Positions 2,985 through 23,035 of a DNA stretch of 64,000 bases are shown here, piece after piece (within the stretch, counting starts at the first letter, position 1; the number at the start of each line of letters is the position of its first letter). The notes under the pieces were generated by a model. That model was given only the letters and a program-made list of their open reading frames with translations, made no database searches and was not told the origin of the DNA. The stretch is from Trichomonas vaginalis G3 (taxonomy: Eukaryota > Parabasalia > Trichomonadida > Trichomonadidae). The stretch is from assembly GCF_026262505.1 (NCBI RefSeq), contig NC_067203.1, forward strand, positions 15,264,392 through 15,328,391, in the 5' to 3' direction. Position numbers and translations under genes: made by a program.

Positions 2985-3332
2985 AACTATTAATATCAAT
3001 CAGACTATTCCATTTTCAAGAACTGGAAAGATTGACATTCAATTTCAATATATCAGATCCAGAATGTATTGTTGAGAATGTTATTTTTAAGTTGTTATAG
3101 AATGTAAATAGTGTTTGATTTTTTTTTTTAGTGAGAATGTTGATGATATATCCCAATCTCGCGATTTTCTCTGGTTCTATTAAATTATATTGATACAATT
3201 CAGCATTAATTGTCATAATTAATTTAATAATGCATTGAGGTAAATAATTCATTATAATTAAGATTTACCATAATATTAATGGCAAGTGTTTTAAGTTATT
3301 CTATCATCTGTTAGTTTGCATCGACAACTTTT
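2985..3332. other. AT-rich spacer between BspA-like gene and Polinton A
   Basis: Short AT-rich region. The first ~75 bases may be the out-of-frame tail of the BspA-like gene. A 78-codon minus-strand frame here has low complexity and no recognisable features. I see no gene. Confidence 0.4.
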
Positions 3333-3338
3333 TAAAAA
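3333..3338. repeat. Target-site duplication TAAAAA (left copy, Polinton A)
   Basis: The six bases TAAAAA directly before the terminal repeat at 3339 are repeated directly after the other terminus at 23030-23035. Six-base duplications are the known hallmark of Maverick/Polinton integration. Confidence 0.9.
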
Positions 3339-3734
3339 AGTAGTATATATGACGGGTTTTGTGACTTTTTTTGTAAACGTAAGAATTCATACATTATTGA
3401 ACAATTTTGTATCATTTTTTTTAACATATGAAGTAAAAAATGTATGATTCTTACGGTTTTTATTCTTACGTTTTTGAATAAATCAAGATTTAAAAAATTT
3501 TCAAAATTGTAAGACATTTACACTCAACCCATACATAATGAAATAAAAAATAAAATTTTTTAAAAATAAACACATTAAAAAATTAACATTAATTTTAAAA
3601 TAATTTATTTTATCTTTTATAAAAGAAGCTATATATAGATGATGTCAGATATTCCGCGATTAATTAAACATCATTTAAATCCTGAATGGGTTAAACTTCA
3701 ATTTAAAAATAAACTTTAAAAATTCATGTCTTAC
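3339..3734. repeat. Polinton A left terminal inverted repeat (396 bp)
   Basis: Matches the reverse complement of 22636-23029 apart from two single-base homopolymer differences. It ends inward at AATTCATGTCTTAC. It carries repeated GTAAGA/TCTTAC hexamers (near 3379, 3449, 3466, 3509, 3729). The 61-codon frame inside it is a by-product and occurs at every terminus. Confidence 0.92.
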
Positions 3735-3787
3735 GAAAAATTAAAACTTAGTTATGTTTATTATTTTATTTTTTTATTTTGTATGAA

Positions 3788-4892
3788 ATGAGCGTCAAAA
3801 CTAACAACGTTAAAAAATTAGGATTCACAAACGAGGAAATAAAGGATATATTAGAGGAGGCGGGTTATGAAGTTAATAAATATTATTTAAGAAATTGTCA
3901 AAAATTTGCCGAGTTATTAAATGATTTAGATTATGATGGAAAAATGAATAAAGATGATGTTATAAATTTCTTATATCCTACATCTGAAGAAGAAAAACCT
4001 AAAGAACCTGATGTTTTCCCTGAATATTATGAAGAACGAATTAAAGATGATGAATATGATGAAATTGAAAGACTGGAAAAAATAAGAGATGAAATAGATG
4101 AAAAAATTAAGGAATTAAGAGAAGTTGAAAAATATAATGAAAATGAAGTAGAGGGTTTAATGAATATCCCAGCTTCAGAATCAGAAGTACAGAAATCTCA
4201 TGAAGAAAGATATAAAAATTATGTCTCAGAATCAACACAAAATTTATTAGATGGTGAAATAGACGAAACACTTTCAGAAGAAGGTACTAAATTTATTCGT
4301 AAACATAAGTTACAATTTATTGATAATGAAGAATACCCTGTATCCTACTTTCACCCCTCTCGATTCTGAGAAATTCAAAAAAGCTCTTAAAAACGTGACA
4401 TATGCAACAAATACGATTAAGAAAGAAGATCATGATATTTACACAAATTATTATTTAAATAAATGCACAGGTGTTGATAAAGTTTTTGATTTATTAGATA
4501 AAATATCAAAAGAAACCATTGGAACCTATAAAATTTTATGCGATTGTGGTTTCATTATTGAAGATACCAATAATGTTTCATATGAAAGAACAGCACCGAA
4601 GGAAGATGAAGTGGAAAGGTCTATACCATTTGTTATTAAGAACATAAAAGATATGAAAACTTATAAACATTATATTTATTCATTTATTTCAGAAAAAATG
4701 GAAGCAACCCATAAAACATCTTCTCATCATTTTATAGCTATTCATACATTCCTTTTCAAAGTTGTGAAATTAAATAAGACAGGAATTAGATTTAATGTAT
4801 CAGGGTACGCATTCTTGAGTAAATTAAAATGTATTCGTCACGTCGCAGATGATAAAAATTTATGTGTTCTTAATTCATTTTATGGACTTTAA
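3788..4892 (+). CDS. Unknown Polinton protein 1, two frames (+1 shift)
   Basis: Function unknown. The ATG at 3788 aligns with that of the copy in Polinton B. Frame one (3788-4369) is acidic and helical, rich in E, K and D with a coiled-coil-like stretch around residues 95-125. It stops at TTC TGA (4364-4369). The homologous reading continues in the +1 frame to 4892 for about 170 residues, with no further stop. The second part holds C-x-C and H/K-rich stretches (CDCGF, HHFIAIH). The same +1 relation is preserved in Polinton B despite local indels, which suggests programmed +1 frameshifting or two separate proteins rather than a chance mutation. As the first gene beside the polymerase it could serve in replication; a terminal-protein role is speculation. 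Confidence 0.6.
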
Positions 4893-4970
4893 CCCTGGAC
4901 TCTCTGAGTCTCGGACTTTAAAAAAATAAACTTTATTTTTATTTTTTTTTTAATTTTTATTCTTACATAA
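4893..4970 (+). promoter_or_regulatory. Conserved 3'-end hairpin plus T-rich leader
   Basis: GACTC-TCT-GAGTC forms a small hairpin just after the stop and is identical in Polinton B (43209-43221). A T-rich tract follows, then TTCTTACATAA immediately before the next ATG at 4971. This probably combines an mRNA 3' end with the next promoter or leader. Confidence 0.35.
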
Positions 4971-5250
4971 ATGAACAAAAATGGAACAGCAAAAATGAAT
5001 GATAATCAAATAAGAGCAGAAGGTAGAAGGTTATTTAAACGCTTCTATAACATTCCTGATGGTGTTAATCCTAAAACTCGTAGAAGTTATTTAAATGAAG
5101 CATAGATGCATATGAAGGATTTGACATTTCATCAGAAAGTGAGAGATTAGCGAGAATGTTAAATGTTAATATTGATTTTTATTATTGTGACCCTCAACCA
5201 GAAGACGTAGACATTAACAAGGTAGACTTTCCATTAGTGGAATCAATAAT
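4971..5250 (+). pseudogene. Short ORF upstream of DNA polymerase, broken copy
   Basis: Homologue of the intact 92-aa frame at 43280-43558. A missing C near 5101 (GAAGCATAG here, GAAGCCATAG in B) creates an early stop, and an extra base near 5242 follows. The encoded segment (RRLFKRFYNIPDG..., then a predicted helix) resembles the region that precedes the exonuclease domain in related protein-primed polymerases. It may therefore be the polymerase N-terminal or terminal-protein region; that is an inference. Confidence 0.55.
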
Positions 5251-8200
5251 GATAGATCCAGAATTTGAAACATAAATATTTTATTAACACAAAGTCCATG
5301 TGGAAAACTTCACGCTGACAGAATTACAGACGTTGAAGCACTCACAGGATATAAAGTTTGCCCCTTTTGCAAAGAAGAAGTATATTCTATCCGTGATGAT
5401 CCAGAAAGGAAAAACCAAAGAAGATTTTTAAAACATTGTGAGAAATGTAAAGAAAATAATGGAAGATTAATTCAAGACGTTCAATTGCAAAACACACAAC
5501 AACCATATACACCACATATTACGAAACAGAAGATATATCAGTGGTTATTAGCTCATAATTTGCAGGAATATTATCAACCGACAAGATATTATATTACTTT
5601 TGACTTTGAAACATTAGAGACTAAAGAAGAATTACAACTTTCTGGTGTGCAACTTTGAACGCTTACTTAAAACCATTCATGGTATCATCAACTGTCAAAA
5701 TAAAGCCGCAAAGCGGCGAGGTCGTAGACCGTGATAAAACATATACGAGGAATTTTTGCTTAACTTCAAGTGATTCTTTTATTTCTGATTGGATTGAGTT
5801 TTTATTTTCAACCTGTTCATTAGTTGCTAAATCAAATATTGAACAATATGATGAATTATTGAAGTCTCATACATTAAATGAAAAACAGAAGGAAGTATTT
5901 AAAGAACTTCTAGATGAGGAATTCAATAAAGTGAATATCATAGGTTTTAATTCGGGAAAGTTTGATTTAAATTTAATTCTTCGTGATTTAAACACTGCAA
6001 AATGGAAAATAAAATCAATGCTGGGTTCATCTTCACAATTTAAGCAAATCATTGTAAAGAAAACAAACGTTCCATATGAATTGAGATTTATTGACATCAG
6101 AAATTATATAGCGGGTGGGACATTAGACCAATTCACTCAAGATTTCGGAAACAATAAATCACGTGTTAAATCCTTTTTCCCTTATCAATTCATCACGTGG
6201 GAAAATTACGAAGAAGAATTATATAAAGAGGAACCATTCACTCAAGATTCATTTTATTCAGCATTAACTCAAGAAACTATATCAGATAGTGATTATCAAA
6301 TATATCTCAATGATGCTAAAAATTTTAAGAATAGATTAGAATATTTTATTCATTATTGCAATAAAGATGTTGAAATTATGATTGACCCAATTGATAAAAT
6401 TATCGAAGAAACATTTGTTTATAAAATTGACATGCTTCATAATCTTTCTTTATCATCGAATGCATCAATGATTCGTTACGCTTTAGCATATAAAGACTTT
6501 AATCCTAATGAAAAATATCCTGAGGAAGAGATAGAATCAAGTTTTGAATTAACGAAAAAGTATTGGAAATATAAAATTGAATCATATAAGAAACAAGATG
6601 AAAAAGCAGAAAGAGATACTAAAAATAATGTTTCAATGGATGATTTTCAATACTATCACGATTTAATCCTTTCATCTAAATGCAAAATGTGTGGTAAAGC
6701 GTTTACATATGCAAATAAACCAACATTAGATAGAATCGATAATGAAAAACCACATACCAAAGAAAATTGTCAGTTAATGTGTTGTTATTGCAATGTCGTA
6801 AAATCAAATAAAGATGAAGATGTTCAACGTTTAAGAATCAATTTAAGAAATTATGCATTAAAAAATAATTTACCAATGACTTTAGATTCAGTTGAAGCTT
6901 ATCACATTCTCCGTAATGGAATTACTGGTGGTCTATCAAATGTTCAACATCGTGTTAATCTTAAAGGAATCACGCACATTAATAAACTTTCATATAGTCC
7001 AGAAACTAAAACTGTATCAAATGAGGACACCACCAACATTATGACTCATTTCGTTGGAGTTGACTTTAATTCATTATATCCTTCATCATTTTCATCTAAT
7101 CCTCATGATTTCATTCAATATACTGACCATAAAATGTATATGCCGGGAAGATTGAATGGTGTTATCATTTGTGATACAGCAACAAAGAAAGCAAAAGCAC
7201 TGGGAATTATTAGAAAGAAAAATACTTTATTCGTGGCTGAAGTAAAGGGTCACATTGATGAAAAATACATTAATGATTACATAAACTTTTTACCGATAAT
7301 AAGAAACTTAGATATTATCACAGATGAAAAAACAATTGGTAGTTTTATGTATAATTACATGAAATCAAACAATCTACCAGTTGACCAGAAACAGAAAATT
7401 AACTCAGTTAGCATCAACACACAACCAATATCAACCATTTTCTTCTTATTATCTTTGGTATCTAATCGACAGATTTCATTTTATCATTGATGACATTCAA
7501 TCAATTTTAACATTTACTAAAAACACTTGTTTTAATGAATTTGCGAACGAATTTATGAACGAAAGACAAAAGGCTGAATTAGAAGGAAATAAAGGAAAAA
7601 GTTTATTTTGCAAGATTTCACTTAATGGATCATATGGTTACGATGCAATGAATACACAAAATTACGCAAAGACTAAAATAATGAATGCACAGAAGGCACG
7701 CGTTGCATGTATGTCAAATAAGTTTAAAAACATAAGAGAAATAGGTGAAGATACATATCAAGTGATGCTTAAAGATAGATTTTATAGATGTGATACATGT
7801 TTACAAGAGGCATTCTTCACTTTAGATAATGCTAAATACTGGTATTTGGTTTTCATTTATGATTTTATGTATAAATGCATGAATGTTAATCGTTTTCATT
7901 TCATTGAAGGTGATACTGATTCATCTTATTGGGCAATCGCTGGCGATCCAAATCTTCCTAACACTCAAGCATTTCAAGCAATTGTTACCGATAAACAATT
8001 TTATGATAAAAACATTTTCAAATTCGCACCTTTTGATTTCTTCTGTTTTGATGAGAAATTTAAACCTAAATTAAAGAATAAAGCTGAAGAAAAAGCACAT
8101 GAGAAGAAGTTATTGGGTTTAGCAATTGAGAAACAAGGTGATAACATGGTTGCTTTATGTCCTAAGTGTTATACATCATTCAACGGTTCAATTGATGGAA

Positions 8201-8439
8201 GTGATTTTAAAAAGATTGCACAAAAAATGAAAGGTGTTAGTTTACGACAAAATAAACAATTAACACCTAAAAATTATTTGGATATAATAAATGATAAAGT
8301 GATATTTGATGGTCAGAATATTAATTTACAACTTAAAAACGGGTCAATGACTCGCTTAACAATCGGTAAGACTGCATTAACAGGAGCACACACTAAGGCT
8401 GTATGTTGTGAAAATGGATGTTGTATGCCATTTATTTAA
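5249..8439 (+). pseudogene. Protein-primed family B DNA polymerase (pPolB), frameshifted
   Basis: Replicative polymerase of Polintons. Exo I (ITFDFETLE), Exo II (GFNSGKFDLN) and Exo III (HYCNKDVE) give a 3'-5' exonuclease. An HNH-type segment (6679-6850) is inserted before the palm. Motif A is GVDFNSLYPSS, motif B KISLNGSYGY and motif C EGDTDSSYW. Compared with copy B, single-base losses near 5271 and 5647 break the N-terminal part. A +1 frame change near 7395, between motifs A and B, is shared with copy B. The last 352 codons (to 8439) are open. It lies directly upstream of the integrase and in the same direction. Confidence 0.88.
6679..6850 (+). other. HNH-type zinc/nuclease segment inside pPolB
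   Basis: CKMCGKAF, then LDRIDN-x8-KENCQ, then CCYCNVVKSNK. This is the C-x2-C...DRID...N-x-Q-x3-C-x2-C layout of HNH endonucleases, lying in frame between Exo III and motif A. Present in both Polinton copies. It is not an intein, since no splice-junction motifs are seen. Confidence 0.75.
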
Positions 8440-8526
8440 TACAATTTATTTTTTATTTTTAATGAAATACCACAGAAGAGACAAAGAGGTGGGCACCCTT
8501 AAAACATTTATTTTATTTTTATATAA

Positions 8527-10031
8527 ATGGATAACACAGATTTAAAAAATTTAATTGATGATTTAGTATTTAATCAAAATTTTCTTGATTATTATGATTT
8601 AAAAGCATATCTCCAAAAACATAATAAAAATATAACGGGTGATGATATGGAATATTATTATCCATATTATAAAAATGAAATTTTGAAATATCATGATAAA
8701 ATAATTTCTAAAATTAAAGACAAAATTAAAAATAATGAATATACAAAGGGAAAAAGTAAATCACAACTTAAACAGTTGAAAGATTTCAAAAATAAAGTAT
8801 TAACAGAAGAAGATATTGATGATTATATAATTATATAATCCCGAGCCACAAAAACCAAAGCCAAAGGAACAAAACACCCAGGTCCTTCAGACCATAAATG
8901 ATGCACAAGCTTTAATTTATGATTCATTAGTTAAACCATATTCAGCCCGACTTTTAAATGAAGATCAACTTTTGGAATTCATCCTTCAACATAAACTCGA
9001 AGCGGGAAAGTATATCAAACCTTTATATACAGCATATTTAAAACAAATGAATAGAATACATCCAGAATTAATGAAAGGAGGAATGAATTCCAAAATCAAA
9101 GCAGATAAAATTAAACCACTTACAACACCAAAACCTCCAACAGTAGTACCTCCTCCTTCAGTTAATCCTTCATCATTCACTTTATTATATCCATTTCAAA
9201 CATTTAAGAAGCAAAAAGATTTTAAAAAGGATTTCAAATATTAAATAAACCAATTGACCCAAAAATTCAACCATTAAAGGAAAAATTTAGTCGACCTTCA
9301 TTTGCTCCATATCCATATTCATACGAAATGATCATCTGGAATATTCAAAAGGAAACGTTACTTATTTATTTGCCATTAACATTAACACTAGATATTTATA
9401 TTGCATTCCGGTGAAAGGGAAAACAGAACAGGAAACAAGAAGAGCTATACAATACTTACTAGATCATGAAAGAGTAGATAATATAAGGGGTGATGGTGAT
9501 AAAGGATTTCAGGCAGCTATGGCTCATTATTTCCCACAAATTAATTTTTACTTTTCATCCTCTCCATATACGTTTCATAATAAAATAGTTGATGCGGTAA
9601 TGAGAACTCTTAGAGATGCGTTAGGGGTTAACGGTCAGATATACTGGGATGGAAATCATGACTCCATCATACAACAGTTAGTATATTATTACAATAATAC
9701 ATGGCATAGAACTATAAACATGAAACCAGTGGAAATGAAAAATGATATTTCAAAAGAATGGGAATATATTAGAAAGCAAATGGAAAAGTTAAATGATGTT
9801 AAACGTGAACAAATTAATTCGGGGCTCATGAATTTTAAACAAGGAAATAAAGTTTTAATTCATCTCGATTATGGAAAAACTGATAAATCAATGACAAAAA
9901 GAAGACGAAGATTTGACACAATAGCTGAATTTGTTAGATATATTAACGGCAATGCATTAGTTGAAGTTGACAATAAATTAATAGAAATTCCGATTTATTT
10001 TATTACTCCATTATATTTAAATAATATTTAA
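8527..10031 (+). pseudogene. Polinton rve-family integrase, broken by indels
   Basis: Retroviral-type integrase (RNase H fold) that would insert the element and make the 6-bp duplication. In B the gene spans 46774-48257; here the frame is broken near 8825, 9238 and 9310-9332. The segment 9411-10031 holds the rear of the core: RGDGDKGF with the second catalytic Asp, and HNKIVDAVMRTLRD, where Asp stands at the usual Glu position. An SH3-like basic C-terminal part (KRRRRFDTI...) follows. The N-terminal ~200 residues are helical with a proline-rich linker. Start at ATG 8527, after a TATATAAATG leader. Confidence 0.85.
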
Positions 10032-10051
10032 TTTTTTTTATTTCGTAAGAA

Positions 10052-10315
10052 ATGAGTGACAACAAAGCAGTCAAGAGTCCAGACAATGAATATAAAAAGA
10101 AACTAAACAGAATTAAATCAAAAATATGCTATTACAAAAAGAAGTCGCAATGTGGTGGGGTTGAAAATGATAAAGAAATAATCGAAAAATTAGAAACTTA
10201 CCGTTCAATCCTTAAACTGAGTGAAGCAAAAATAAAAGAATTTAATAGAATAAATAAATTGATTGGAAGAGATGAATTTAATAAAGATGAATTTTTAAAC
10301 TCAATCCAAATTTAA
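10052..10315 (+). CDS. Small helical Polinton protein (87 aa)
   Basis: Unrecognised basic/acidic, probably coiled-coil protein (KKKLNRIKSKICYYKKK, then a long E/K helix). It is intact here; the copy in B has one extra A in a homopolymer. Preceded by the element's TTTCGTAAGAA-ATG leader, shared with other genes. It lies 20 bp after the integrase and overlaps by four bases, tail to tail, with the 54-codon minus-strand frame at 10312-10476. Confidence 0.6.
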   Translation: MSDNKAVKSPDNEYKKKLNRIKSKICYYKKKSQCGGVENDKEIIEKLETYRSILKLSEAKIKEFNRINKLIGRDEFNKDEFLNSIQI

Positions 10316-10476
10316 TTTTTATTCCTCTTCGACAACATCTCTCTTTCCATCATTACTGCATAACCACATTTTCTCAATTTTAGTGGTTTGTTATTTTTAA
10401 CATGTTCTTGCATCATTTTTATCATTTCCTCCCTTGTTATGATTCGTGGTAAATTTTGAGCTTGTGGGGTATTCAT
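10312..10476 (-). CDS. Very small basic ORF (54 aa)
   Basis: ATG at 10476, stop at 10312-10314. It begins MNTPQAQNLPRIITREEM and ends in a basic helix with KLRKCGYAVMMEREM. The start is preceded by an A/T-rich leader like those of the other genes. The copy in B (48540-48704) has the same start but small indels in mid-frame. Function unknown; it sits between the small helical gene and the repeat array. Confidence 0.45.
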   Translation of the reverse strand: MNTPQAQNLPRIITREEMIKMMQEHVKNNKPLKLRKCGYAVMMEREMLSKRNKN

Positions 10477-10519
10477 TTATGATAAAAATAAAAATTTAAA
10501 TTATGCCGTTCTAAAGTTT

Positions 10520-10872
10520 GTGACAACATGACATTTTGACAACAACACAGGAGGAAGGTAGTTATGACTTATTTTTGAAGAACTGAAGGTGTCACCAGGT
10601 CACCAGGTAATTTAACTCATGACATTTTGACAACACAGGAGGAAGGCAGTTATGAATTATTTTTGAAGAACTGAAGGTGTCACTATGTCACCATGTGTAC
10701 CAGGTATTTAACTTCTCTGAAAAAATGAGACAACATGACATTTTGACAAATCAAGGAGGAAGGTAGTTATGACTTATTTTTGAATAACTGAAGGTGTCAC
10801 ATGTCCCATGTCACAGTCATTAACTTCTCGACAAAATGAGACAACATGACATTTTGACAACACAGGAGGATT
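10520..10872 (+). repeat. Iteron-like array, left arm (Polinton A)
   Basis: Three to four units of ~110-120 bp in plus orientation. Each holds TGACAACATGACATTTTGAC, AGGAGGAAGG, TTTTTGAAGAACTGAAGGTG, then a cluster of GTCACC/GGTCACC motifs and a TTTAACTTCT tail. The same unit occurs in reverse orientation at 13280-13500. No genes are inside. The 3' end of the primase-helicase starts immediately after. Confidence 0.85.
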
Positions 10873-10901
10873 AATGCAAAAATAAATTCCAATCATACTT
10901 T

Positions 10902-13207
10902 ATAAGCTTCATTTACAGGTATTTCATCGTCAGTAAATGAATCTCATTATCGTTTGGTTCAACCTGTTTATATAATCCTTTCATTTCTTCTTTCAAAAAT
11001 AACACCATGTTTGTTTATCGTCTATTCTTCTCTGTTTCCTATCACATTTATCCTTAATGCTCATTTGGAAATTCTTGTCTTTCATGTCTGATGGTTTGCA
11101 GAATAGAGCATTTTTACATATCATACCTGCACATAATTCATCATAATGTGTATTTATCCATACATCTAAAGGATTTGTTGATAATTCTATTAAATCTTGT
11201 TTGGCTTCAGTCATCGGTATGATTCGTACATTAAATGATGAAAGGTCATATTGCATAAATATGTTAAAAGGTTATCATAAAATTCCTTTGTGCATGAATC
11301 CATTAAATTCTTGAAGTAATCAAATTGACCCTTGAATTTACCATTACTCTTAAAACTACGTATCTTCTGTCTCCAACTTCAATTTTGACAGGGTAAACGT
11401 TATTAGTTACGAAAATGAAGTTTGCAACGTTCTGAGCAGTTCTTCTGGTTGATTCTTTTCATTAATTCTAATCTCATTATCCGTTATAATTGATTTCAAA
11501 GCGTTGAAGTTTGCGAGTCTGTCTTCACCAACATTCTTGAGTTCATTAAGTACAAGAACATTTTATTTTCAACTACTGAGTTGAAATTACCCGTTAGCTC
11601 ACTTATTTCAGTAATGTTTTTACATGAATAACCTGCGAGAAGTTCAGAAATAATGTCTGTAAATCTGTTTTTACCTGTTCCCTGAAGTCCTTTCAAAATA
11701 ATTGCTGTTTCATTCTGATTCCAGGATGTTGAATCATTGATGCAATCCAGCCGAGAAGGTATTTATACACTTCATCGTTATTATCACAAATGGCTTCTTT
11801 AATGAAATTCATAAACATCTCAATTTTTGAGTAATCTACTTTTTCGAGAATGTTGTATTTATAACCCTGAAACGTTGAGAAAACATCGGGGGAATCAGAT
11901 TTAAAGCAAACACCCTTAACGGTTAATGAGGATAATTGATTTAATAGTACGTCCCATGCTGTTATGGTTTTACCTTCTTCTTTAAATAATTTAATCATTT
12001 TGAGTGACTCTTTCATGTTTGATTGAAGAACGAATGATATTTGATTCATTTTGTCGTGTATGTTGTAATCTTTCTGAATGAAATATTTATTTCCACAATC
12101 TACAAAACGGATTACACGTGATAAATCCTCAATTACTTCAGAACTGTTTTTATACTGATGATTTTCAGCTTTACGTCTAATATCTGTTATCAAAAACGAG
12201 TCATCAAGTTTGATATCAAATGTTATTTTTGGCTTACGTAATAAAGGCAAAACGTATTCATCATAATATTCCTTTTGATATAGTTTTAGAATCTTCACTA
12301 AAACAAATGGAGAAGTCATTAAATGTGCATATCTACTACGTGCTTTTTCAAAATTACTTTTTGCATTTTCTGTTAAACTGCAGAAGTTATAAACGTTATC
12401 ATATGCTTCATTAATTAAATGATTAGGTAACGAATTAATAGCTTGAAACAGTGTGAATAATGTAACTTCTTTTTCTAAATTCATGTTTCCACCGTCATTA
12501 TGTACTTCAAAATCACTGATGCCATCAACTATGCTTTGAGCTAGTTTATCGTCAATGTTTACATCTTTGTTTTCATTCATGATATTCTTTATTTCTTCGT
12601 TCTTCTGTTCAACTCTTACCTTAATATTCAAATCATTTAATATATCGTTTACTGTTCTGGTTAATGTTGAATCGTAACTTCCACGAATGAATGAGTATGT
12701 ATTGATTGGTTCTGTTGCATTCTTGCGAACTCTTGAATCAGCCATAACTACTAATGAACGCTTTGAATCATTCATAGAAGTCATTATGTCAATATCATAA
12801 TCATTGCAAGAATAACATTTAATCATTCTGTTCGAGGTTGAATAGAAGAAATTAGTGTTGCAATAAATGTGAAGACCTCCTGATGCGGTTTTAACGATAA
12901 CATCTTTATCCGAAAGTTTTGATAAAATGTCTTTTCTAACTGTTTCTTTAAGTTCATCATTGTATGATTTATTGATATCAACATCTATAATCGTTAAATT
13001 TGAAATTTTATTTACTAATAAAGCTGTACCAGTTTTCCTTCCTCTTCCTCCATCATGTTTGAGGTAGTTATGTAAATCAATCTTGTTTTCACCAATTCTT
13101 TCGTTGAGGGTTTTAGTTTCTGCCACAACTAATTCCTCAGCTAATGAATCAATAACTTGTTCATCAGAAACGATATAGTTGTTGCTGTTGTTGTTTGTTG
13201 CTGTCAT
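10902..13207 (-). pseudogene. Primase-SF3 helicase, inverted relative to Polinton B, broken
   Basis: N-terminal archaeo-eukaryotic-primase-like part with a D-x-D motif (TIIDVDINK) and an S-G-G-x-H motif (ASGGLHIYCN). A helical middle follows, then an SF3/D5-type helicase domain with Walker A GLQGTGKN. The first 504 codons (13207-11693) are open. The helicase part is broken by single-base losses near 11716, 11563, 11446 and 11356 compared with B. It would open and prime DNA for replication. Here it points left; in Polinton B the same gene points right, and in both cases it is flanked by inverted repeat arrays. The ATG at 13207 follows a TATTCCTATATAAATG leader identical in B. Confidence 0.87.
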
Positions 13208-13279
13208 TTATATAGGAATAAAAAAATAAAAATAATTTTAAAACTAACTTTATTTTTGGACTGCATCAAATTTTCGTAA

Positions 13280-13500
13280 ATGTTGTCTAAATGTCATGTT
13301 GTCTCATTTTTTCAGAGAAGTTAAATGACCTGGTGACACATGGTGACCTGGTGACACCTTCAGTTCTTCAAAAATAAGTCATAACTACCTTCCTCCTGTG
13401 TTGTTGTCAAAATGTCATGTTGTCTCATTTTTTCAGAGAAGTTAAATGACCTGGTGACACATGGTGACATAGTGACACCTTCAGTTCTTCAAAAATAATT
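13280..13500 (-). repeat. Iteron-like array, right arm (Polinton A)
   Basis: Two units of the 10520-10872 repeat in inverted orientation (read as GTCAAAATGTCATGTTGTC...GGTGACACC TTCAGTTCTTC). The GGTGACC/GTGACA core is the same as in the left arm and differs from that of Polinton B. The remaining sequence to the fibre gene (13501-13616) is AT-rich, with two copies of AACGTAAACATT. Confidence 0.85.
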
Positions 13501-13616
13501 AATTATTGAATGACCTGAAAACATTAACGTAAACATTAACGTAAACATTTATTTCTGTAGTTCATCCATTACTTCATTACCTAATTAATTACAGACATAA
13601 AATATATTTAGTTCAT

Positions 13617-15737
13617 TCAATGAACGCGGTACCATGCGAATACAGTCACAAATGGTGGCATGTAATCTTTACCCGAGCCTGTTGGATTTGTTGTGAAAGT
13701 GTGTGAATGATTTCCTGTGGTTCCACAGAAAATACCTGCGCTTGAATCTACTGGGTCGCTTGAAATATCATATCTATCCATTCCCTGTCTATCCGAACCT
13801 GCTGCAAGATTTCTATAACCTCTTTTTGTTATTGAATGTGAATGATTACCTGTTGTGTTTGTAGTTCCTGTATGAGTGTGCGGTGGAAGGTTTGCTTCAG
13901 TAATTTTCTTCGAACCTCCTGTTTGCTTTGAAGAGTTAGCACAGTATAAGAATTTATCTACAATCTGCTTCCACGTACCGAAACCCAGAACTGTTGCTGG
14001 ATTTGTTGAGTTCATTGACGTATAAATAGAACCAATGGGGTAAATCATCTCAAGAATTGTATTTAATCCATTATGAATATTGAATTTATTATATAATATT
14101 GAATTTGGGTGAGTATTTAAAACTGGTCTTGTTATCAATATTAACGTATTATTTTTGAAAATTGCTTTTCTAACATCTTGAAATTTTGTGATTTCAGACC
14201 AGTTTCTTCCATCACTACTGATATTTACTAAATCACCACATCCTAAAGCGATGAAATACCCATCAATATAAAATAAATTAGTAAATCTATAATTTCGAGT
14301 AAATTTTGGAGTGAATGAATAAACCAATTCCCAATTTGATAAATCCTGTGATAAATAAATATGTCTGTTATAACTTACAGGATATGAATAGACCATTTCA
14401 CCTGAAACGAGAACATAAACATTTGATCCATAACATAAAGCTTCAATGTCTCCATCAGCTTGAAAAATTTGTTCAAATTGACCTTGTGGTATTGAAGATG
14501 ATCTATAAATTTTATCATTCTGTAGGATAAAATACATGTTGTTAATGTAATACCACTTACTTGTATAATCAATTTCCAAATCTGATGACATCATACTAAA
14601 CATATAATAATTTATCCCATCCTCACTAATGAAAATTTGACTGACTTCATAAATTAGTACCCATTTATTATTAACGCATCTAATAGGATTATTTGAATAT
14701 TTAAATTTAGCATCTTGATTTAAATTACATTTGAACCATTGGATACAATCGAATGAATAACAAGGGTAAAAATCATCTCCAACCGTTATCATTCCCATAA
14801 ATTTACCGTTATTATATTCAACATATAAAATTATTGGATTAATGATTGGCTCTCGTGTATCAGGATTCAAAACAGATGGAGTAAATGATTCATAGTTTTT
14901 AAAATCATTTGTTTTAAAATAATAAAGCACTCCAGCTGTATAAAATAAATACATGGTCACTCCATCGAAACATATCCATTCAAAAGAATCTATATCAAAG
15001 GTTTTATCTGATGATTTCATAAAATTTAAAAATGGTGGAGTAAAATAGACCTCTGATTGTTTTATTTCTTCATTAACAAATGATATATCAGCTTTCTTTG
15101 CTAACTCACTATCCACATATTCCTTATCTGCCTTCTTCATTAACTCATTGTTAACATAAGTTTTATCCGCTTTAAGGTCTAAACATCCTGAAACCCATCC
15201 TGTATCAGCTTTAGTTTTTAAAATCTTTGATGTCCATTCATGATACCATTCAACCCTTTCTATAATTTCATTATCTTTTTCATTAACATATTCATTATCT
15301 GCCTTCTTCATTAATGCACTAGCCACAAGTCCCTTATCTGCTTTCTTCTCTAACTCACTATCCACGTATTCCTTATCTGCTTTCTTCATTATGTCATTTA
15401 GGAAACCTTTTATGAATTCCTCATTTAAATTAAATCTTCCAATCTTCAAAACTTTAGGAAATGCATTTAATGCGTAATATCTCTGTTCTTCTGGTGGAAT
15501 TGATGTTATATCATCCGTTATTCCTTTAATTTTTGAATTCATAAATAAAATTTCTTTTATATTTGATATCACTGCACCACCTTTGCAAACGAATTCGAAA
15601 TGGTCATTTTTCAATACTATCTCCAAATCTCCATATTTCAACCTTTGCGTTTGTTCTGCCGTCTTTGAATTATATGCATATATGGCGTATGTAATGGTCT
15701 GTGCCTTAAGTTGTTGTGGTTGCTGTTGTTTAATCAT
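13617..15737 (-). CDS. Tail-fibre-like attachment protein with beta-propeller (706 aa)
   Basis: A candidate host-attachment fibre. Residues 1-115 are a head also found in B. Residues 117-225 are stalk repeats of the form K-A-D-x3-V-x5-L, as in phage fibres. Residues ~230-555 are a beta-propeller-like part with Asp-box motifs (YSFDCIQW 327-334, ISEDGINY 370-377, LSQDLSNW 462-469, ISSDGRNW 506-513). Residues 560-706 are a phage tail-collar-like tip (YPIGSIYTS, FGTWKQI, YMPPFVTVFAWYR) with three H-x-H pairs (620, 632, 677) of the type that bind metal in phage fibre trimers. Intact. The copy in B lacks the propeller and has a different tip. It is the first gene of the minus-strand virion block. 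Confidence 0.8.
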   Translation of the reverse strand: MIKQQQPQQLKAQTITYAIYAYNSKTAEQTQRLKYGDLEIVLKNDHFEFVCKGGAVISNIKEILFMNSKIKGITDDITSIPPEEQRYYALNAFPKVLKIGRFNLNEEFIKGFLNDIMKKADKEYVDSELEKKADKGLVASALMKKADNEYVNEKDNEIIERVEWYHEWTSKILKTKADTGWVSGCLDLKADKTYVNNELMKKADKEYVDSELAKKADISFVNEEIKQSEVYFTPPFLNFMKSSDKTFDIDSFEWICFDGVTMYLFYTAGVLYYFKTNDFKNYESFTPSVLNPDTREPIINPIILYVEYNNGKFMGMITVGDDFYPCYSFDCIQWFKCNLNQDAKFKYSNNPIRCVNNKWVLIYEVSQIFISEDGINYYMFSMMSSDLEIDYTSKWYYINNMYFILQNDKIYRSSSIPQGQFEQIFQADGDIEALCYGSNVYVLVSGEMVYSYPVSYNRHIYLSQDLSNWELVYSFTPKFTRNYRFTNLFYIDGYFIALGCGDLVNISSDGRNWSEITKFQDVRKAIFKNNTLILITRPVLNTHPNSILYNKFNIHNGLNTILEMIYPIGSIYTSMNSTNPATVLGFGTWKQIVDKFLYCANSSKQTGGSKKITEANLPPHTHTGTTNTTGNHSHSITKRGYRNLAAGSDRQGMDRYDISSDPVDSSAGIFCGTTGNHSHTFTTNPTGSGKDYMPPFVTVFAWYRVH

Positions 15738-15761
15738 TTATTATGATTTAAAAATAAATAT

Positions 15762-16472
15762 TTAATCCGTTATCTCATCAGCTATTTTTTCTATTTGAAA
15801 TTGCCATAATATTTCATTCATGAATTCTAAATCACAATCAAATAGGTCGGTTATTCTAAATTTAATATTTGATAAATCTTTTGAATGAAGAATAAATGAA
15901 TTCCCAGATAATTGAAACGGATATGATAAAGAAAATATGTTTAAGTTGATGGATAAAATGTTTTGTATTGATGGGTAAGAGTTAGGGTCTAATGTTTGAT
16001 GTGAAAATCTCATTGGGGTATTAACTTTATCACATTTGATTAAAATGAAATTGGAACCAGTGTCAGAATACAAAACATCCCCAACATCTTTTTCAAAATT
16101 TAATATCCCCAACAATGAACGAAGATGAGGAGTACAAAATTTAATTTTCAGCGGAAATTTAATAAGGTTATTTATTTCATCAAGTTCAAAAAGTTTATCA
16201 GGTTTTGATTTAAAATTTTCTTCATACCATACGATAAATGATTCATTTAAATAACTTAAAATCGTGTTAATATCCCATTTCGTTATCACATTATTTATAT
16301 ACATATCATACGTTTTTTCAAGGTCATCTTTAATAAATGATATATAATCTGAAGGGTCTAAAAGAATGGGATTAAATTTACCACTCACAGAAACGAGAGT
16401 AACATTATAAATTCCGCTAACTGTTAAATTTAATTCACAGCTATTATTCGAAATAATATTGATAATTGACAT
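15762..16472 (-). CDS. Putative minor virion protein (236 aa)
   Basis: Intact and nearly identical in B. Beta-rich; the stretch IKFCTPHLRSLLGI, followed later by an F-I-L-I-K-C-D segment and P-M-R-F, recalls the 'LGF / vYCD' pattern of a widespread Polinton capsid-associated protein. That likeness is from memory and weak. It starts 21 bp from the divergent gene at 16494, so the two share a promoter region. A penton or other minor capsid role is possible but unproven. Confidence 0.5.
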   Translation of the reverse strand: MSIINIISNNSCELNLTVSGIYNVTLVSVSGKFNPILLDPSDYISFIKDDLEKTYDMYINNVITKWDINTILSYLNESFIVWYEENFKSKPDKLFELDEINNLIKFPLKIKFCTPHLRSLLGILNFEKDVGDVLYSDTGSNFILIKCDKVNTPMRFSHQTLDPNSYPSIQNILSINLNIFSLSYPFQLSGNSFILHSKDLSNIKFRITDLFDCDLEFMNEILWQFQIEKIADEITD

Positions 16473-16493
16473 TTTTTTATTACGATTAAAAAT
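16473..16493. promoter_or_regulatory. 21-bp divergent promoter/leader
   Basis: Only TTTTTTATTACGATTAAAAAT separates two divergent ATGs. In B (55619-55637) it is two bases shorter but otherwise the same. Transcription must start within the opposite gene or this spacer, so the leaders are extremely short, as is known for trichomonad mRNAs. Confidence 0.5.
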
Positions 16494-16973
16494 ATGGTAA
16501 AGCGTTATTTTCCAGTGATAAATAAAACTAGGATAAGATTACCTCAAGAATTCATAAATTCAACGAATAAGAAATTCATTCATGTTATAAATTTTAGTGT
16601 TTTCAGAAAATATGAGTCAATGTCATATTCATCATCGGGTTATATTTCACTTCATTCAAATTTAGTTCAATCAAACCCATATAATGACCATTTCATAAGA
16701 TTTTCAGATGGTATTAAAAATGTAATTGATAGATTAAAATATGAACAGATTGACAATATCGAATTTTTGGAATTTTGGTTTAAATATCCCGATGGAAAAA
16801 AGATTGAAGTTAAAGATAAAGCTGATACTATAACAAAAACAATTACAATGACCGATCCGGATAGTGGGGAACAAAAAGAAATAAAACAAACGATAGAAAC
16901 TGGTGAAAGGTCAATTATTATTGATTATGATTCAAAGGATTATTATTCAATAATGTTAATGCTTGAATATTAA
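16494..16973 (+). CDS. Unknown virion-block protein (159 aa)
   Basis: Unrecognised. Beta-rich (YISLHSNLVQSNPYNDHFIRF...) with a charged loop K-A-D-T-I-T-K-T-I-T-M-T-D-P and a YYSIMLMLEY end. It could be a single jelly roll (penton/minor capsid), from predicted strand content only. It is the only plus-strand gene inside this part of the block and overlaps the 3' end of the next gene by 4 bp. Only one or two residues differ in B, suggesting strong constraint. Confidence 0.5.
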   Translation: MVKRYFPVINKTRIRLPQEFINSTNKKFIHVINFSVFRKYESMSYSSSGYISLHSNLVQSNPYNDHFIRFSDGIKNVIDRLKYEQIDNIEFLEFWFKYPDGKKIEVKDKADTITKTITMTDPDSGEQKEIKQTIETGERSIIIDYDSKDYYSIMLMLEY

Positions 16974-17671
16974 ATGGCCTTAACAAAGAATTTTTCAAGT
17001 GATATTTTATATTCATCAACTATTTTATTATAAATATCATTATATGTTAAATGAAGTTCAGTTGTTGTTCCGTTCTTTGATATCTTAATTGTGCTAATAT
17101 CCTTTATAGGATTTATTTTTGCAACTGTTCCGCAGCATGAAACCTCATCATCTATGAAAAATTGAATCTTCACGTCTGAATCCTGAACATCACAAAGAAT
17201 GGCAATAATGTGAATTAATGATTCATAAGGTAAAATAATTAAACCGGATTGATCAATTAAATTTATTATTGAATCATAATTATCAGTTATTATATCACGG
17301 TAAATTTTCATTAATTCAGAATTAATGTCTATTTTATATGGTGCATTGCGACTGGAATCGTAGATTCCTGGGTTCTCGATGTTTGATGAAAGAGGTGGGG
17401 GGTATGTTGGATATGTGGGAATTTCAACGGGTTCTTTACCGGGTTCAGATAAAATGATTGGGTCTCCATTCTCATGGTTTTCTTCATTCTCCTCCTTTTT
17501 CGGTAAGTCACGAGTTAATAAATTTGGTTGAGTTGCTGACCTTGTTAATTCAGGGCTAACATTAACTTTAACATTTTGAATAATTCGTGATTTATCATCA
17601 TTTACGTTATAACCAACCGTAATCTCTGCTTTTGCGTTAGTGTTCTTTTGACTAGTGAAACGTCTTCTCAT
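16970..17671 (-). CDS. Unknown virion-block protein (233 aa)
   Basis: No family recognised. Basic N-terminus (MRRRFTSQKN), then a proline/glutamate-rich linker (residues ~60-105) that is shorter in B, then a folded C-terminal half with conserved ILPYESLIHIIAILCD and a Cys pair (SCCGT). Linker length variation with conserved ends is typical of structural or scaffold-like proteins. Intact in both copies. Confidence 0.5.
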   Translation of the reverse strand: MRRRFTSQKNTNAKAEITVGYNVNDDKSRIIQNVKVNVSPELTRSATQPNLLTRDLPKKEENEENHENGDPIILSEPGKEPVEIPTYPTYPPPLSSNIENPGIYDSSRNAPYKIDINSELMKIYRDIITDNYDSIINLIDQSGLIILPYESLIHIIAILCDVQDSDVKIQFFIDDEVSCCGTVAKINPIKDISTIKISKNGTTTELHLTYNDIYNKIVDEYKISLEKFFVKAI

Positions 17672-17703
17672 TTATAATCGAATAAAAAAATATATTTAAA
17701 CTT

Positions 17704-18603
17704 TTATTTTGCTGGAACTTTTGAATCTATTATTCCCTGTATTTGTTCATGAAGTTGATTTTTAGCATTTTCATCGAAATTAATAGACCTAATATATTCA
17801 TTAATTGCATTCTTATAATCATCTGATTTCTCAAATTTTCTTTTATCTGATTCCTTAACTAAATCATAAGTTAAACCTCGTTGCTGATATAATGGTTTCT
17901 TAATTAAATCTTTGAATGCTTGAGATAAAGCACCTGATGCAATTCTTGCTACTATAATTGGTTGGAATTGCTGTTTAAGTTCATCTTTAACATTTGCGAA
18001 AACTGGATCGAATAAAGCAACTTTAAAGAATTTCTTAGCTGGAATTTCAGGTCTCAAATTTGCATATTGACCATCAAACGGGTTAGAATATCGTGGTAAT
18101 CCATCCGGTCCCTCTTCAACAGCATTTAATTCTTCATTGAAATAAGAATATGGATTACGACGGTATGAATTAATTGGACCATTTTCACCTTCTCCAATGT
18201 ATTGTTTAACAGCTTTTCCATTTTCATCAAATTGCATAGGATAACATTCATTATATGCTTTACGTTTAGGATAATCAGATACAGTTAATTTATACCCATT
18301 TATGACTTTAATATTACCTTGACCATCAGTAACGAAAACTTCATTTATACCATCAGGTTTTCCATTTGGACCCGTAATGTCTGCTTCGTGTGCTTCCCAA
18401 TTTGGACCATGACGTTTGGCATATGCTTGAGCTTCTGGTAATGTTAAAACATTTCTCATTTGTTTAACATCTTTTTGAAGACCAGCAACAATATGAACTA
18501 ATTCTTTCATTCCATCAGGAACTTTCATAGTTCTATTATATACACCCCTTTTGTTTGTCCCTTGTTTTAATGGAACCTGTAGAAGATTTGCTATTTCTGT
18601 CAT
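17704..18603 (-). CDS. Unknown virion-block protein (299 aa)
   Basis: Unrecognised. The N-terminal 200 residues are nearly constant between copies ([21 protein letters not shown], a GPNGKPDG turn, [13 protein letters not shown]). The last ~80 residues diverge strongly in sequence and in the final helix. It lies between the 233-aa gene and the packaging ATPase, so a capsid or genome-packaging role fits. No protease signature (His-Asp-Cys triad) is visible. Confidence 0.5.
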
Positions 18604-18643
18604 GTTTAATTATAAATAAAAAATAAAAATTAATTATAAAAAG

Positions 18644-19468
18644 TTAATCAAATTTAACACCTCCTTTATTTAAATCAACTATTATTTTTCCATGTTCTCC
18701 TAATTGCTGATATTGTGTGTAAAGTTCATTAATGCTCATTGGTAAATTCACTTGATAAAGCATAACGTTCAACTGTTGACGACTAAACCCTGAAAATGAA
18801 AAGGGTTGATAGATTTGATTTAATGTTTGTGCTTAATGCTTTGAAATATTGAACAGCCATGAAGAATGAACACTGAATGTGTCGACATTGAGTTAATAAC
18901 TGATTAAAATATGATTTCTCATTAGTTATTAGTTTTGATTTCACGGCATCATCTAGAAAAATTAGTGAATGCAAAAATTCTCTATCAAAATTTGAAATAG
19001 AAAGTGTTTCAAATAATTCATCCCGTTGTTTATCAATAATTTTATCCTCTAATCCTTGCTTCTTGATTGTATTATATAATTCTTTATACATTAAAAAGTT
19101 TTTTAAATAATCTTCTGCTTCTTCTTGTGATAAATAAATAATTGGAATTTTGATTAAATGCTTTAAAGATTCAAATGTATCATCTGAAGGTGAACCTGAA
19201 CGGTTGATATAAATTAACACATGTGAATGGGGGAAGTGTTAGCAATAATGATAATTTGTTTTAATATCGTTAATGTTTTACCTTTATTCTGTTTACCAAT
19301 TGCTGCAGTGATTGAATTTAAGTAACATTCAGAATATGGAATTTTCATTAATTTTTCCTTAGATAGAGCATTTCTATTATCACTCAATGCTTCATTAATC
19401 ATATCATCTACGTATGTATTATATACTCCCGCTAATTCTTCATAAGGAGTGGATGAATTTAAATCCAT
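18644..19468 (-). pseudogene. A32/FtsK-HerA-type packaging ATPase, two frameshifts
   Basis: Genome-packaging ATPase of the A32 clade. Walker A GKQNKGKT and Walker B LIFLDD are both still encoded, but in different frames. Compared with copy B, one base is missing near 19232 (just after ANTSP) and two near 18790 (NLSTLFIF). This is the only virion-module gene broken in Polinton A. It starts at ATG 19468, 24 bp after the capsid gene, in the same direction. Confidence 0.88.
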
Positions 19469-19492
19469 TTAATCAAAAATAAATTTATAATT

Positions 19493-21130
19493 TTAAACAT
19501 TTCTATTCATCAATATTTCATCATATGAACTTCTATACTGCGGTGGTGTACCTGTTGGATGATATTTCAAACCTTCATCTGGTGTCCATGTCCAATATGT
19601 AGTCCTAGTAAACCAAACCTGAGGAGGATTTGTCACTTTTGAACAGTAAGTGTCATTTTCACCCTGAATGATTGGATAGGCTTTCACTTGTACTGTAACT
19701 TGTGAATTGAAAGTTTCTAATCCATCAAAGAATATACCCGCTCCATCACGTTGAACTGGAATAGTGCATAAGAATGAAGTTTGGTCTTTCCATGTTCTAG
19801 CTAATGGCGTGCCATCATCTGCATTTAGTGGTCTAGTTAATGAGTCCTCGTATTCTTCCGTGCATTCATTCACTCCATCTAAATCAGAAGCTTGAAGCAT
19901 ACGTGTAAAGAATATGTCACCCACTGTGGTCATCGCTTGATCGGGGAAGTTTCTGGAATCTATAGTGACCTGAAGACCTCGAAGCATTGGATTTTCTAAA
20001 ACTGTTCTTTGCATTGCATTCTTCGGAAATGCTAACACAACATCTGTAACATTATGAAGAGCGTATGAGAAATCTGAGCTGATACCTTCAGGAGTGATGC
20101 AACCTCCATTTAGTGAACGAACGTCAATATGTTGAGCTGGAATCATGAATGGATCTTCCTTACTGAATAAACGTGGTATTGCTTTAACTGATTCTTCAAT
20201 TAAATATCCTGGTGTAATGCATTTATCCTCTAAAACTTCCATCTTTGTGCATGAAATAATAACGTCATCAACTGTTGCGTCAGCAGATGTAGCGGCTAAG
20301 CTTGTAATTAATTTGGCAGGAAGTCCGATTTGTTGGAATTTGCGATCATATTTATAAACATGATTCATAATCTTTTCATAATTTTCATCAGTTATCTTTT
20401 CATAAACATAATTTTGTAAATCAGCAACTCTTAACGGGTCAACCTGACAAAATACTAAAGTATCCCTGAAAACATAATATTTAAGAATGATTTCACCAAA
20501 TGATTTAGGATAATCATCGAACGCCTGAAATGCTAACAAATCATTTACCGGAATAATCATATCAAAAGTGATATCAACTTCTTCATTTGCTTTCTTGAAA
20601 ACTTCTGAAGGGTCAATATATTTACCACATACTGAGTTATCATATTTTTGAACATTATTATATAACGAATGAACAAACTTTTTAACTTTCCTTTCTGATT
20701 TTGGTTTATATGTTGCAAATGCGAAAGATTCACGGGCGCAATCCATCTGAAGATAACCGGCATCACCTCTTTCGGTTTCTACTTCTAATTGTTTAAAGCT
20801 TTGATTTGATGATTTGTAACCAACGAATAAACGCATGCATTTAAAAGCGGCATCACATGTGAAAGCTTTATTTGAAACTAGAGTTGCTTTAACTTTGCGT
20901 TTAATATATGTGTCACCTAATTGGTTCACATCATGAGCCGGATTTGTAATTCTTAAATGAGTTTGTTTATCATCAAAATATGGAGCATCAGAGTCATAGC
21001 ATGAACTTTCAAGTTCTCTATAATATCTTCTACCATCATTCTTTGCGAATATTTCATTTATCTTTTCGAATGAATGAAACACATTTCCATTAATCGGTTT
21101 GGTGTTTGGTACTAAATAGTTTGTCGTCAT
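19493..21130 (-). CDS. Major capsid protein, double-jelly-roll type (545 aa)
   Basis: Length, position next to the packaging ATPase and sequence pattern fit the Polinton major capsid protein. The pattern includes VDITFDMIIPVNDLLAFQAF in the first half, and NVTDVVLAFPKN with LQVTIDSRNFPDQ in the second. Assignment is by pattern and context, not by search. Intact. By eye only about six substitutions and one residue deletion (GY-LIEE here, GYGLIEE in B) separate it from the B copy, the best conserved long gene of the element. Confidence 0.75.
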   Translation of the reverse strand: MTTNYLVPNTKPINGNVFHSFEKINEIFAKNDGRRYYRELESSCYDSDAPYFDDKQTHLRITNPAHDVNQLGDTYIKRKVKATLVSNKAFTCDAAFKCMRLFVGYKSSNQSFKQLEVETERGDAGYLQMDCARESFAFATYKPKSERKVKKFVHSLYNNVQKYDNSVCGKYIDPSEVFKKANEEVDITFDMIIPVNDLLAFQAFDDYPKSFGEIILKYYVFRDTLVFCQVDPLRVADLQNYVYEKITDENYEKIMNHVYKYDRKFQQIGLPAKLITSLAATSADATVDDVIISCTKMEVLEDKCITPGYLIEESVKAIPRLFSKEDPFMIPAQHIDVRSLNGGCITPEGISSDFSYALHNVTDVVLAFPKNAMQRTVLENPMLRGLQVTIDSRNFPDQAMTTVGDIFFTRMLQASDLDGVNECTEEYEDSLTRPLNADDGTPLARTWKDQTSFLCTIPVQRDGAGIFFDGLETFNSQVTVQVKAYPIIQGENDTYCSKVTNPPQVWFTRTTYWTWTPDEGLKYHPTGTPPQYRSSYDEILMNRNV

Positions 21131-21199
21131 TTATTAATAAATAAAAAATCAAAATTAAAAGATGAAAATGAATTTTTAATTTTAATGAAATAATCAACT

Positions 21200-21415
21200 A
21201 TGGCTGCAGGATTCTTTAAGAAACTGTGGGATAAAGTAAAAAGAGGAGCGCATAAAGTTTGGGAAACAATGAAGAAAGGAGCAAATTGGATATTTAAGAA
21301 TAAAGAAGCAATTAGTGACGTTGCTGAATCAATAACGCCAAAAGCTGCCCCAATAAGAGAAATTTTAAATAAAGGAGAAAAAGTTTATCAAAGACTACAA
21401 CCAATACTAAGATAA
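21200..21415 (+). CDS. Small amphipathic protein 1 (71 aa)
   Basis: Begins MAAGFFKKLWD, a strongly amphipathic, basic-aromatic helix, followed by more K/W-rich helix (KVWETMKKGANWIF). The same eleven residues open the neighbouring convergent gene at 21440-21676. Such helices resemble the membrane-active N-terminus of adenovirus protein VI, found as small virion proteins near the capsid gene. Membrane penetration or capsid lining is an inference. Intact in both Polintons. Confidence 0.6.
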   Translation: MAAGFFKKLWDKVKRGAHKVWETMKKGANWIFKNKEAISDVAESITPKAAPIREILNKGEKVYQRLQPILR

Positions 21416-21439
21416 AAATAATATTTATTTATTTTTCCA

Positions 21440-21676
21440 CTATTTACCTCCTATTTTATTAAGTATTCCTTCAGCTATTCCACCAATTGCGTTACCTGCT
21501 TGTGCTCCCATCGCCGGGTTACCTGCTTTAGTACCTAATACTCCACCTATGATAGTTCCTGCCGTTTTCGCTACTGGTGCCAAAAAGTTTGCAACAGGTT
21601 TAATAACCTTTTTATAAACCCAACCCGCAGCTTTCTTAATTCCATCCCATAATTTTTTAAAGAATCCTGCCGCCAT
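21440..21676 (-). CDS. Small amphipathic protein 2 (78 aa)
   Basis: Same MAAGFFKKLWD opening as the gene at 21200, then a different body: basic helix (IKKAAGWVYKKVIKPVANFL) and a glycine/alanine-rich tail (GTIIGGVLGTKAGNPAMGAQ) typical of membrane-inserting segments. It converges on the first copy with 24 bp between the stops. Probably an ancient duplication. Intact in both Polintons. Confidence 0.6.
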   Translation of the reverse strand: MAAGFFKKLWDGIKKAAGWVYKKVIKPVANFLAPVAKTAGTIIGGVLGTKAGNPAMGAQAGNAIGGIAEGILNKIGGK

Positions 21677-21742
21677 TTCTGATTTAATATTAATTAAAAA
21701 ATATATTTCATCACTTATATTCTAATTTTTATTTAATGATAA

Positions 21743-22599: not shown

Positions 22600-22635
22600 T
22601 TTCTTACGAAATAAAAAAATAAATTATTCAAAAAT

Positions 22636-23029: not shown

Positions 23030-23035
23030 TAAAAA
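23030..23035. repeat. Target-site duplication TAAAAA (right copy, Polinton A)
   Basis: Identical to 3333-3338 and directly adjoining the terminus at 23029. Confidence 0.9.

Follow-up and report, generated by a model that had tools for sequence, protein, structure and literature searches.

Introduction

In the Staphylococcus aureus pathogenicity islands (SaPI) and phage-inducible chromosomal islands (PICI), the C-terminal domain of the Rep initiator recognises short iterons that adjoin its own gene, according to excerpts of the published account (PMC7581432). These Rep-iteron modules (SaPI5 Rep, PriRep1), as well as Cch2 of the staphylococcal cassette chromosome mec (SCCmec), share a D5-like helicase fold with the gene described here, which is carried by Maverick/Polinton elements of Trichomonas vaginalis G3. 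Two such elements, called A and B, lie in a stretch of 64,000 nucleotides of contig NC_067203.1 (positions 15,264,392 to 15,328,391 of the forward strand, assembly GCF_026262505.1), which is the whole DNA analysed and is referred to below as the window. The closest database protein, TVAGG3_0043110, shows 96% identity, in keeping with T. vaginalis G3 as the host. The sequences suggest, and we think it probable, that the gene belongs to a self-contained module, a D5-like primase-superfamily 3 (SF3) helicase enclosed by inward arrays of its own recognition sites, in which residue 726 of the predicted wing would set the iteron that is read.

The staphylococcal systems differ from this module in being bacterial islands with a small origin, which in SaPI and SCCmec lies on the downstream side of the gene, whereas the Maverick module has as many as 33 units, each about 120 bp long, that point inward from both gene ends, has its gene in either orientation, and resides in a eukaryotic element also carrying a family B polymerase. 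The alpha protein of the satellite phage P4 and ORF904 of the archaeal plasmid pRN1 combine a primase, an SF3 helicase and a C-terminal winged helix, a layout that the Maverick protein may share. P4 alpha binds the repeats of its origin via the C-terminal winged helix (excerpts of PMC4234260), and the excerpted sources on P4 and pRN1 do not describe a residue-iteron covariation across many copies. P4 differs by a Toprim-type primase, and pRN1 by a stem-loop origin with no iterons. The Rep of geminiviruses is an unrelated rolling-circle initiator. Close geminivirus replicons differ in iteron sequence and in the cognate Rep (excerpts of PMC12548392 and PMC2974675), which is the likeness to the Maverick module, although geminiviruses are circular single-stranded DNA viruses of plants and not many copies within one host genome. 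Finally, recombination between inverted repeats flips the DNA that lies between them, and double rolling circle replication stimulates the inversion (excerpts of PMC3147054). The 2-micron plasmid, herpes simplex virus 1 and chloroplast DNA share this flipping between inverted repeats; the Maverick case differs in that the flipping unit is a single replication gene with putative recognition arrays of its own, inside a transposon. A literature search covering titles and the beginnings of abstracts retrieved nothing that describes this arrangement.

A helicase gene enclosed by inward-facing arrays

The features of A and B on which the analysis is based are the following (window coordinates).

3338-23030: Maverick/Polinton element A, with terminal inverted repeats (TIRs) at 3338-3734 and 22636-23030, inverted and 99.5% identical (blastn)
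10509-10876, plus strand: A array next to the 3' end of the helicase gene; units face the gene, GTCACC-type iterons
10880-13254, minus strand: A primase-helicase cassette; gene broken, open reading frame (ORF) fragment 11693-13207
11032-11034, minus strand: A codon 726, CAG (Gln), the residue paired with GTCACC iterons
13269-13508, minus strand: A array next to the 5' end of the helicase gene; units face the gene
about 41679-61502: Maverick/Polinton element B, with an inverted terminal match 41735-41923 / 61314-61502, 98.4% identical over 189 bp
50031-50306, plus strand: B array preceding the helicase start, with 2 full units
50310-52690, plus strand: B primase-helicase cassette, including the 47-nt leader; ORFs 50357-50929 and 50913-52670
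52533-52535, plus strand: B codon 726, CGA (Arg), the residue paired with GTGCC iterons
52703-53507, minus strand: B array downstream of the helicase, 6 parsed units facing back to the gene

The left end of B was placed via homology with A. The distance from TIR to TIR is 19.7 kb in A and 19.8 kb in B, within the 15-25 kb of Maverick/Polinton elements. The helicase frame is broken in both, since the ORF listed for A covers only 11693-13207 and that of B is split in two.

A preliminary description of the window had reported that the helicase segment is inverted between A and B within collinear flanks, and that oppositely oriented arrays of one repeat bracket the gene in both elements. Comparison of one half of the window with the other by blastn confirmed both statements: A 3329-10888 matched B 41670-49118 in plus orientation, A 10509-13508 matched B 50063-53095 in minus orientation and A 15085-22096 matched B 54258-61264 again in plus orientation, the inner minus block (10618-13503 / 52961-50068) being 91.8% identical. 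The flipped gene is not the whole difference, however, because the B interval also has a KilA-N gene between plus-strand arrays and is therefore more than the A interval turned around.

The array unit is 115-125 bp long, and in A as in B the two arrays beside the helicase gene are opposite to each other in orientation. Within the unit, a constant head (GAAGAACTGAAG or near) is followed by 2-3 iterons in a constant frame, then by an invariant AACTTCT, a stretch rich in A and T, and three TGACA repeats that are again constant. Iteron types are GTCACC, GCTACC/GTTACC and GTGCC, with GGTAACC and GTCCC as rare forms. We compared 51 copies, among which L009-L038 are the 30 that ranked highest in protein similarity to the B ORF when 75 of 4503 candidates were scored, and L043-L062 were picked by orientation (10 flipped, 10 same); L039-L042, longer versions of L018, L036, L013 and L017, were excluded from all counts, and L024, L029, L034 and L038, which have no readable backbone, from the orientation counts. 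All 214 parsed units face the gene, at both ends and whichever the orientation of the gene (129 units adjoin plus genes and 72 adjoin minus genes, with 13 unassigned), so the array orientation is fixed relative to the gene ends, as had been proposed from A and B.

Both arms share their iteron type in 45 of 48 copies, where 20 would be expected. An identical whole unit was found in both arms of 21 of these 48 copies, against 24 of 2256 between-copy comparisons, and because identical units recur across the arms of one copy far above the between-copy level, the arms are, to judge from their sequences, often homogenised within the element. At C1:3349237-3353174, adjoining a helicase copy, 33 exact matches to the constant part lie mostly at 120-bp spacing and in one orientation. 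Genome-wide, the 23-base constant part has 8,323 matches at up to 2 mismatches.

A nested mobile element, composed of the helicase and its inverted arrays and inserted into Mavericks either way round, could also have such an anatomy. Inverted arrays are present at both ends, with units parsed in both arms in 48 of 51 copies, and the helicase is absent between the backbone markers of some elements; in L067 left and right backbone are joined with 269 bp between the markers and no array or helicase, which may be an original or a cleanly emptied junction. Moreover, A and L032 have near-identical left flanks (0.17% different) and helicases 3.4% different, in opposite orientation and with different iteron type, as if the cassette had been replaced; the sequences of this pair fit segment replacement better than an in-place flip. 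However, the cassette occupies the same backbone position in 47 of 51 copies (the flanks are unknown in the other four), no transposase belonging to it was noticed, the arrays vary from 1 to 33 parsed units, and inspection by eye noticed no target-site duplication. We consider a nested mobile element unlikely.

Two other helicase-less junctions, L063 and L064, carry an insert within the first 1500 bases. That of L063 has a tRNA-like stretch (GGTTCGAACC box), possibly a tRNA-derived repeat; ARAGORN called no tRNA in L063-L065.

One residue of the helicase covaries with the iteron type

For 47 copies (21 GYTACC, 26 GTCACC), each of 164 informative helicase columns was tested for association with the iteron type, the class being set by the 5' arm or, when this was unread, by the 3' arm. 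The top column was position 2225, the third base of codon 726, with p=9.5e-13, the best of 60 label shuffles reaching 9e-5. Codon 726 encodes H in 21/21 GYTACC copies and Q in 24/26 GTCACC copies; the remaining two are L062, which has a gap at the codon, and L011, which has R together with GTGCC in the 3' arm. B and L010 combine R726 with GTGCC in both arms. The pairing is thus Q with GTCACC, H with GCTACC/GTTACC and R with GTGCC, and Q and H copies of the two main classes agree in 45/45, a count that leaves out 6 of the 51 copies (the R copies L009-L011, plus L030, L055 and L062). At the level of single units, 199 of 214 follow the three residue-iteron pairs.

A held-out test was made on 12 more copies of chromosome C1, taken in chromosome order and not fetched earlier, whose iteron cores were read by eye from the sequence letters. 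Eleven were readable and all eleven agreed with the pairing. When the final part of the gene was excluded from the tree, residue and iteron type each needed 9 changes.

The arrays might instead be mere satellite or promoter/enhancer sequence, and the match at 726 might arise because the gene's 3' end hitchhikes with the 3' array. The first 3' unit is indeed no more than about 250 bp from codon 726, and a silent third-position change at codon 730 is also associated (1.3e-7), so that some hitchhiking is to be admitted. On the other hand, no column between codon 731 and the 3' array reaches 0.05, and the association with the 5' arm, located 2.3 kb from codon 726 and beside codon 1, peaks at the same codon (3.7e-12), while the best column in the 600 bp adjoining that arm has p=0.02. 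Because the columns nearer the 3' array are unassociated while the 5' arm gives the same peak, linkage does not, on this sequence evidence, account for the residue-iteron match. The agreement of the held-out copies, the restriction of position 726 to R, Q, K and D in 54 aligned sequences and its place in a predicted C-terminal beta hairpin also argue against hitchhiking, which we regard as improbable.

The protein has a D5-like SF3 helicase fold, and no Pfam primase domain matched the 770-aa ORF. In one full-length model, residues 668-739 form helices and a beta hairpin, the predicted C-terminal hairpin that contains residue 726. Structural alignments to SaPI5 and PriRep1, of which the first and last residues are given, end at residues 735 and 745. 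We read the modelled hairpin as the wing of a winged helix, in which residue 726 might contact a base. No relative of the helicase was found in viral contigs.

The helicase flips on a fixed backbone

For T. vaginalis, 4,808 Maverick copies and 2,716 ORFs named 'Mav1.6 DNA primase domain protein' have been reported (excerpts of PMC7845603), a name not tied here to the helicase ORF of the window. A 24-base marker in the 3' part of the helicase has 663 matches in the genome at up to 2 mismatches. The preliminary description had proposed to count the orientations in other copies, and had named one fixed orientation per element subfamily, with breakpoints outside the arrays, as the outcome that would speak against inversion. 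On chromosome C1, both orientations are common: 30 of the 93 exact-marker copies listed are B-type, 24 are A-type and 39 have no exact backbone marker nearby (exact 24- and 43-base markers were used, those of the right backbone listed up to 8.94 Mb). In copies having both left- and right-backbone markers, the two orientation calls agree in 9/9. As a control, the nearest left-right marker pairs kept strand and order in 17/19; the two exceptional pairs, separated by 9.0 and 11.9 kb, may come from different elements. Because the marker pairs keep strand and order while the orientation of the helicase varies, the helicase flips on a fixed backbone.

On the tree of the 47 helicase genes of known orientation (28 plus, 19 minus, a ratio that is no frequency given how L043-L062 were picked, the frequency being that of the C1 count), at least 10 orientation changes are needed, against an average of 15 for shuffled labels; counting well-supported branches alone, the tree forces just 3. 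The left-flank tree (35 flanks) needs at least 6, with a shuffled mean of 12. These counts are multiple yet below those of shuffled labels, and therefore orientation is, as far as the trees indicate, inherited for some time and repeatedly changed. The outcome named as speaking against inversion was thus not observed. Distances of left flank and helicase were uncorrelated (r 0.04, n 32; r 0.00, n 33), but this exchange test by distance matrices is powerless, because two halves of the left flank are themselves uncorrelated (r -0.12). Right-flank and helicase distances gave r 0.59 (n 16), which may be driven by B-like copies.

The preliminary description had left it open whether the inversion is a simple by-product or a switch subjecting the gene to different transcription. 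A switch, in which a flip would alter helicase transcription and turn replication on or off, is in line with the inverted flanking repeats, with the presence of both orientations and with an association of orientation and residue/iteron class: among 43 C1 copies, H is found in 14 on the same strand as the backbone and 3 flipped, Q in 7 same and 17 flipped, and R in 2 same. Shared ancestry may be the cause of this association, and when orientation was compared with iteron class along the gene tree, independent pairs were too few. What changes with a flip does not, however, include the sequence upstream of the gene. The 47-nt leader aligns upstream of the ATG in 30/30 copies (18 plus, 8 minus, 4 unassigned), and the units beside the gene start face it in either orientation. 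The clustering of orientation on the gene tree points to inheritance for a time and not to fast toggling. Maverick ORFs are also nearly silent in published RNA-seq, where 25 of 38,656 annotated mariner and Maverick ORFs exceeded the expression threshold (excerpts of PMC7845603). Because leader and arrays travel with the gene, a transcriptional switch is unsupported; we dropped it as the main reading, hold it to be very improbable and favour the by-product. An assembly artefact as the source of the two orientations, inverted repeats being a classic cause of mis-joins, is less probable still, considering that most arms examined have a few hundred bases, that the assembly consists of 86 contigs for 180.9 Mb and that orientation follows both trees, of gene and of flank, more closely than shuffled labels do, unlike random mis-joins.

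A second rearranging segment and other genes of the elements

The preliminary description of a rearranging zone had overlooked that the KilA-N gene also rearranges, and that the arrays resemble binding sites of the helicase they enclose. Three further features of B belong here.

48745-49248, plus strand: B array from the left backbone to the KilA-N gene, about 4 units, GTGCC-type iterons
49269-49784, plus strand: B KilA-N domain gene (PF04383, 2.2e-23), the second rearranging segment
41920-42063, plus strand: B lone unit just inside the left TIR, GGTAACC-type core

In the frame of the backbone, the strand of KilA-N is minus in 29, plus in 5 and unassigned in 66 of 100 matches listed. The gene orders found, in the same frame, are helicase plus or minus with no KilA-N within the stretch examined; helicase plus (4 copies) or minus (5 copies) with KilA-N minus after it; KilA-N plus ahead of helicase plus (3 copies, including B); and KilA-N minus ahead of helicase plus (one copy, L018). 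At L068 (C1:6079200-6083000), three KilA-N genes lie in tandem at intervals of 843-845 bp; each shares about 95% identity with the gene of B, and no array units were parsed between them.

Among the other genes, a family B DNA polymerase was identified in A by PF03175 on a fragment at 7381-8439 (2.2e-6, 27.3 bits for a cut-off of 25.8), and the fragment 18783-19220 resembles the A32-like packaging ATPase PF04665 below its cut-off (22.1 bits for 22.8). For the retroviral-type integrase and the capsid proteins, the 20 ORFs scanned gave no Pfam match, no dedicated search having been made. Right of the arrays lies a gene with a Gp10_C (phage baseplate) domain (13617-15737 in A, 706 aa; 53600-54883 in B, 427 aa). 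It has internal 39-bp tandem repeats, and A 14077-15050 is mostly unmatched in B.

Discussion

By analogy, we read this locus as an initiator-plus-iterons replication module like those of SaPI and P4. As in those systems, iteron arrays adjoin the initiator gene, with 214 units beside 51 genes, and the iteron type is matched to the initiator, here by covariation alone. The sequences suggest that the helicase of each copy reads its own DNA tags. In the mechanism that we propose, the C-terminus of the helicase, a predicted winged helix, would bind the iterons of each unit, the wing residue 726 would determine the iteron type recognised, and the arrays would probably be the helicase loading site or origin. 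The two arms of an element are inverted relative to each other and often differ little in sequence, so that homologous recombination between these facing arrays is the likely cause of the inversion; it would flip the segment and would probably take place during replication. Recombination between different copies could swap or remove the segment. Flipping itself would be expected to be neutral, a by-product and no switch, because the gene start keeps the same leader and facing units whichever way the gene lies.

Several observations weigh against this reading, in addition to the silent change at codon 730. Fifteen units depart from the three pairs: five in L062, where the codon is unreadable, four combining Q with GTCCC in L055, two degenerate ones in L030, one R-GTCACC in L011, H-GTAACC and H-GTCACC in L031, and one Q-mixed in L053. 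The lone unit of B has a GGTAACC core, against the R726/GTGCC type of that element. H is missing at position 726 among the 54 aligned sequences. Independent pairs on well-supported branches number only 3 (3/3 agree, sign test p 0.25), so that the number of certain independent changes is small. When the C-terminal domain was folded alone and without alignment, no usable model was obtained (pLDDT 40), and the winged helix consequently depends on the single full-length model. The orientation bias between H and Q copies on C1 (p=0.0013) is not predicted by plain neutral flipping, unless it stems from shared ancestry. Finally, Mavericks carry a family B polymerase, so that an extra origin is not obviously needed.

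Two of the features just mentioned also deserve note for themselves. L055 has Q726 with GTCCC iterons in both arms, and may be an exception or an additional type of the code. The lone unit of B has no counterpart parsed in A.

A broader proposal, which we judge as apt to prove wrong as right, is that a one-residue code divides hundreds of Maverick copies in a single eukaryotic genome into private replication groups. Q, H or R at position 726 would read only GTCACC, GYTACC or GTGCC, respectively, and the arrays would keep pace by recombination within the element; the module would work either way round, and its flips would record recombination through the origin.

The usual picture of Maverick/Polinton replication is protein-primed copying from the ends, and how this replication starts is poorly known. 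The sequences of this locus suggest an internal, helicase-read origin in one large family. They also offer a protein-DNA recognition code that is directly testable, with three natural versions and hundreds of copies in one genome. If true, this code would explain how many near-identical replicons can coexist without sharing their initiators, and would account for the occurrence of the gene in both orientations.
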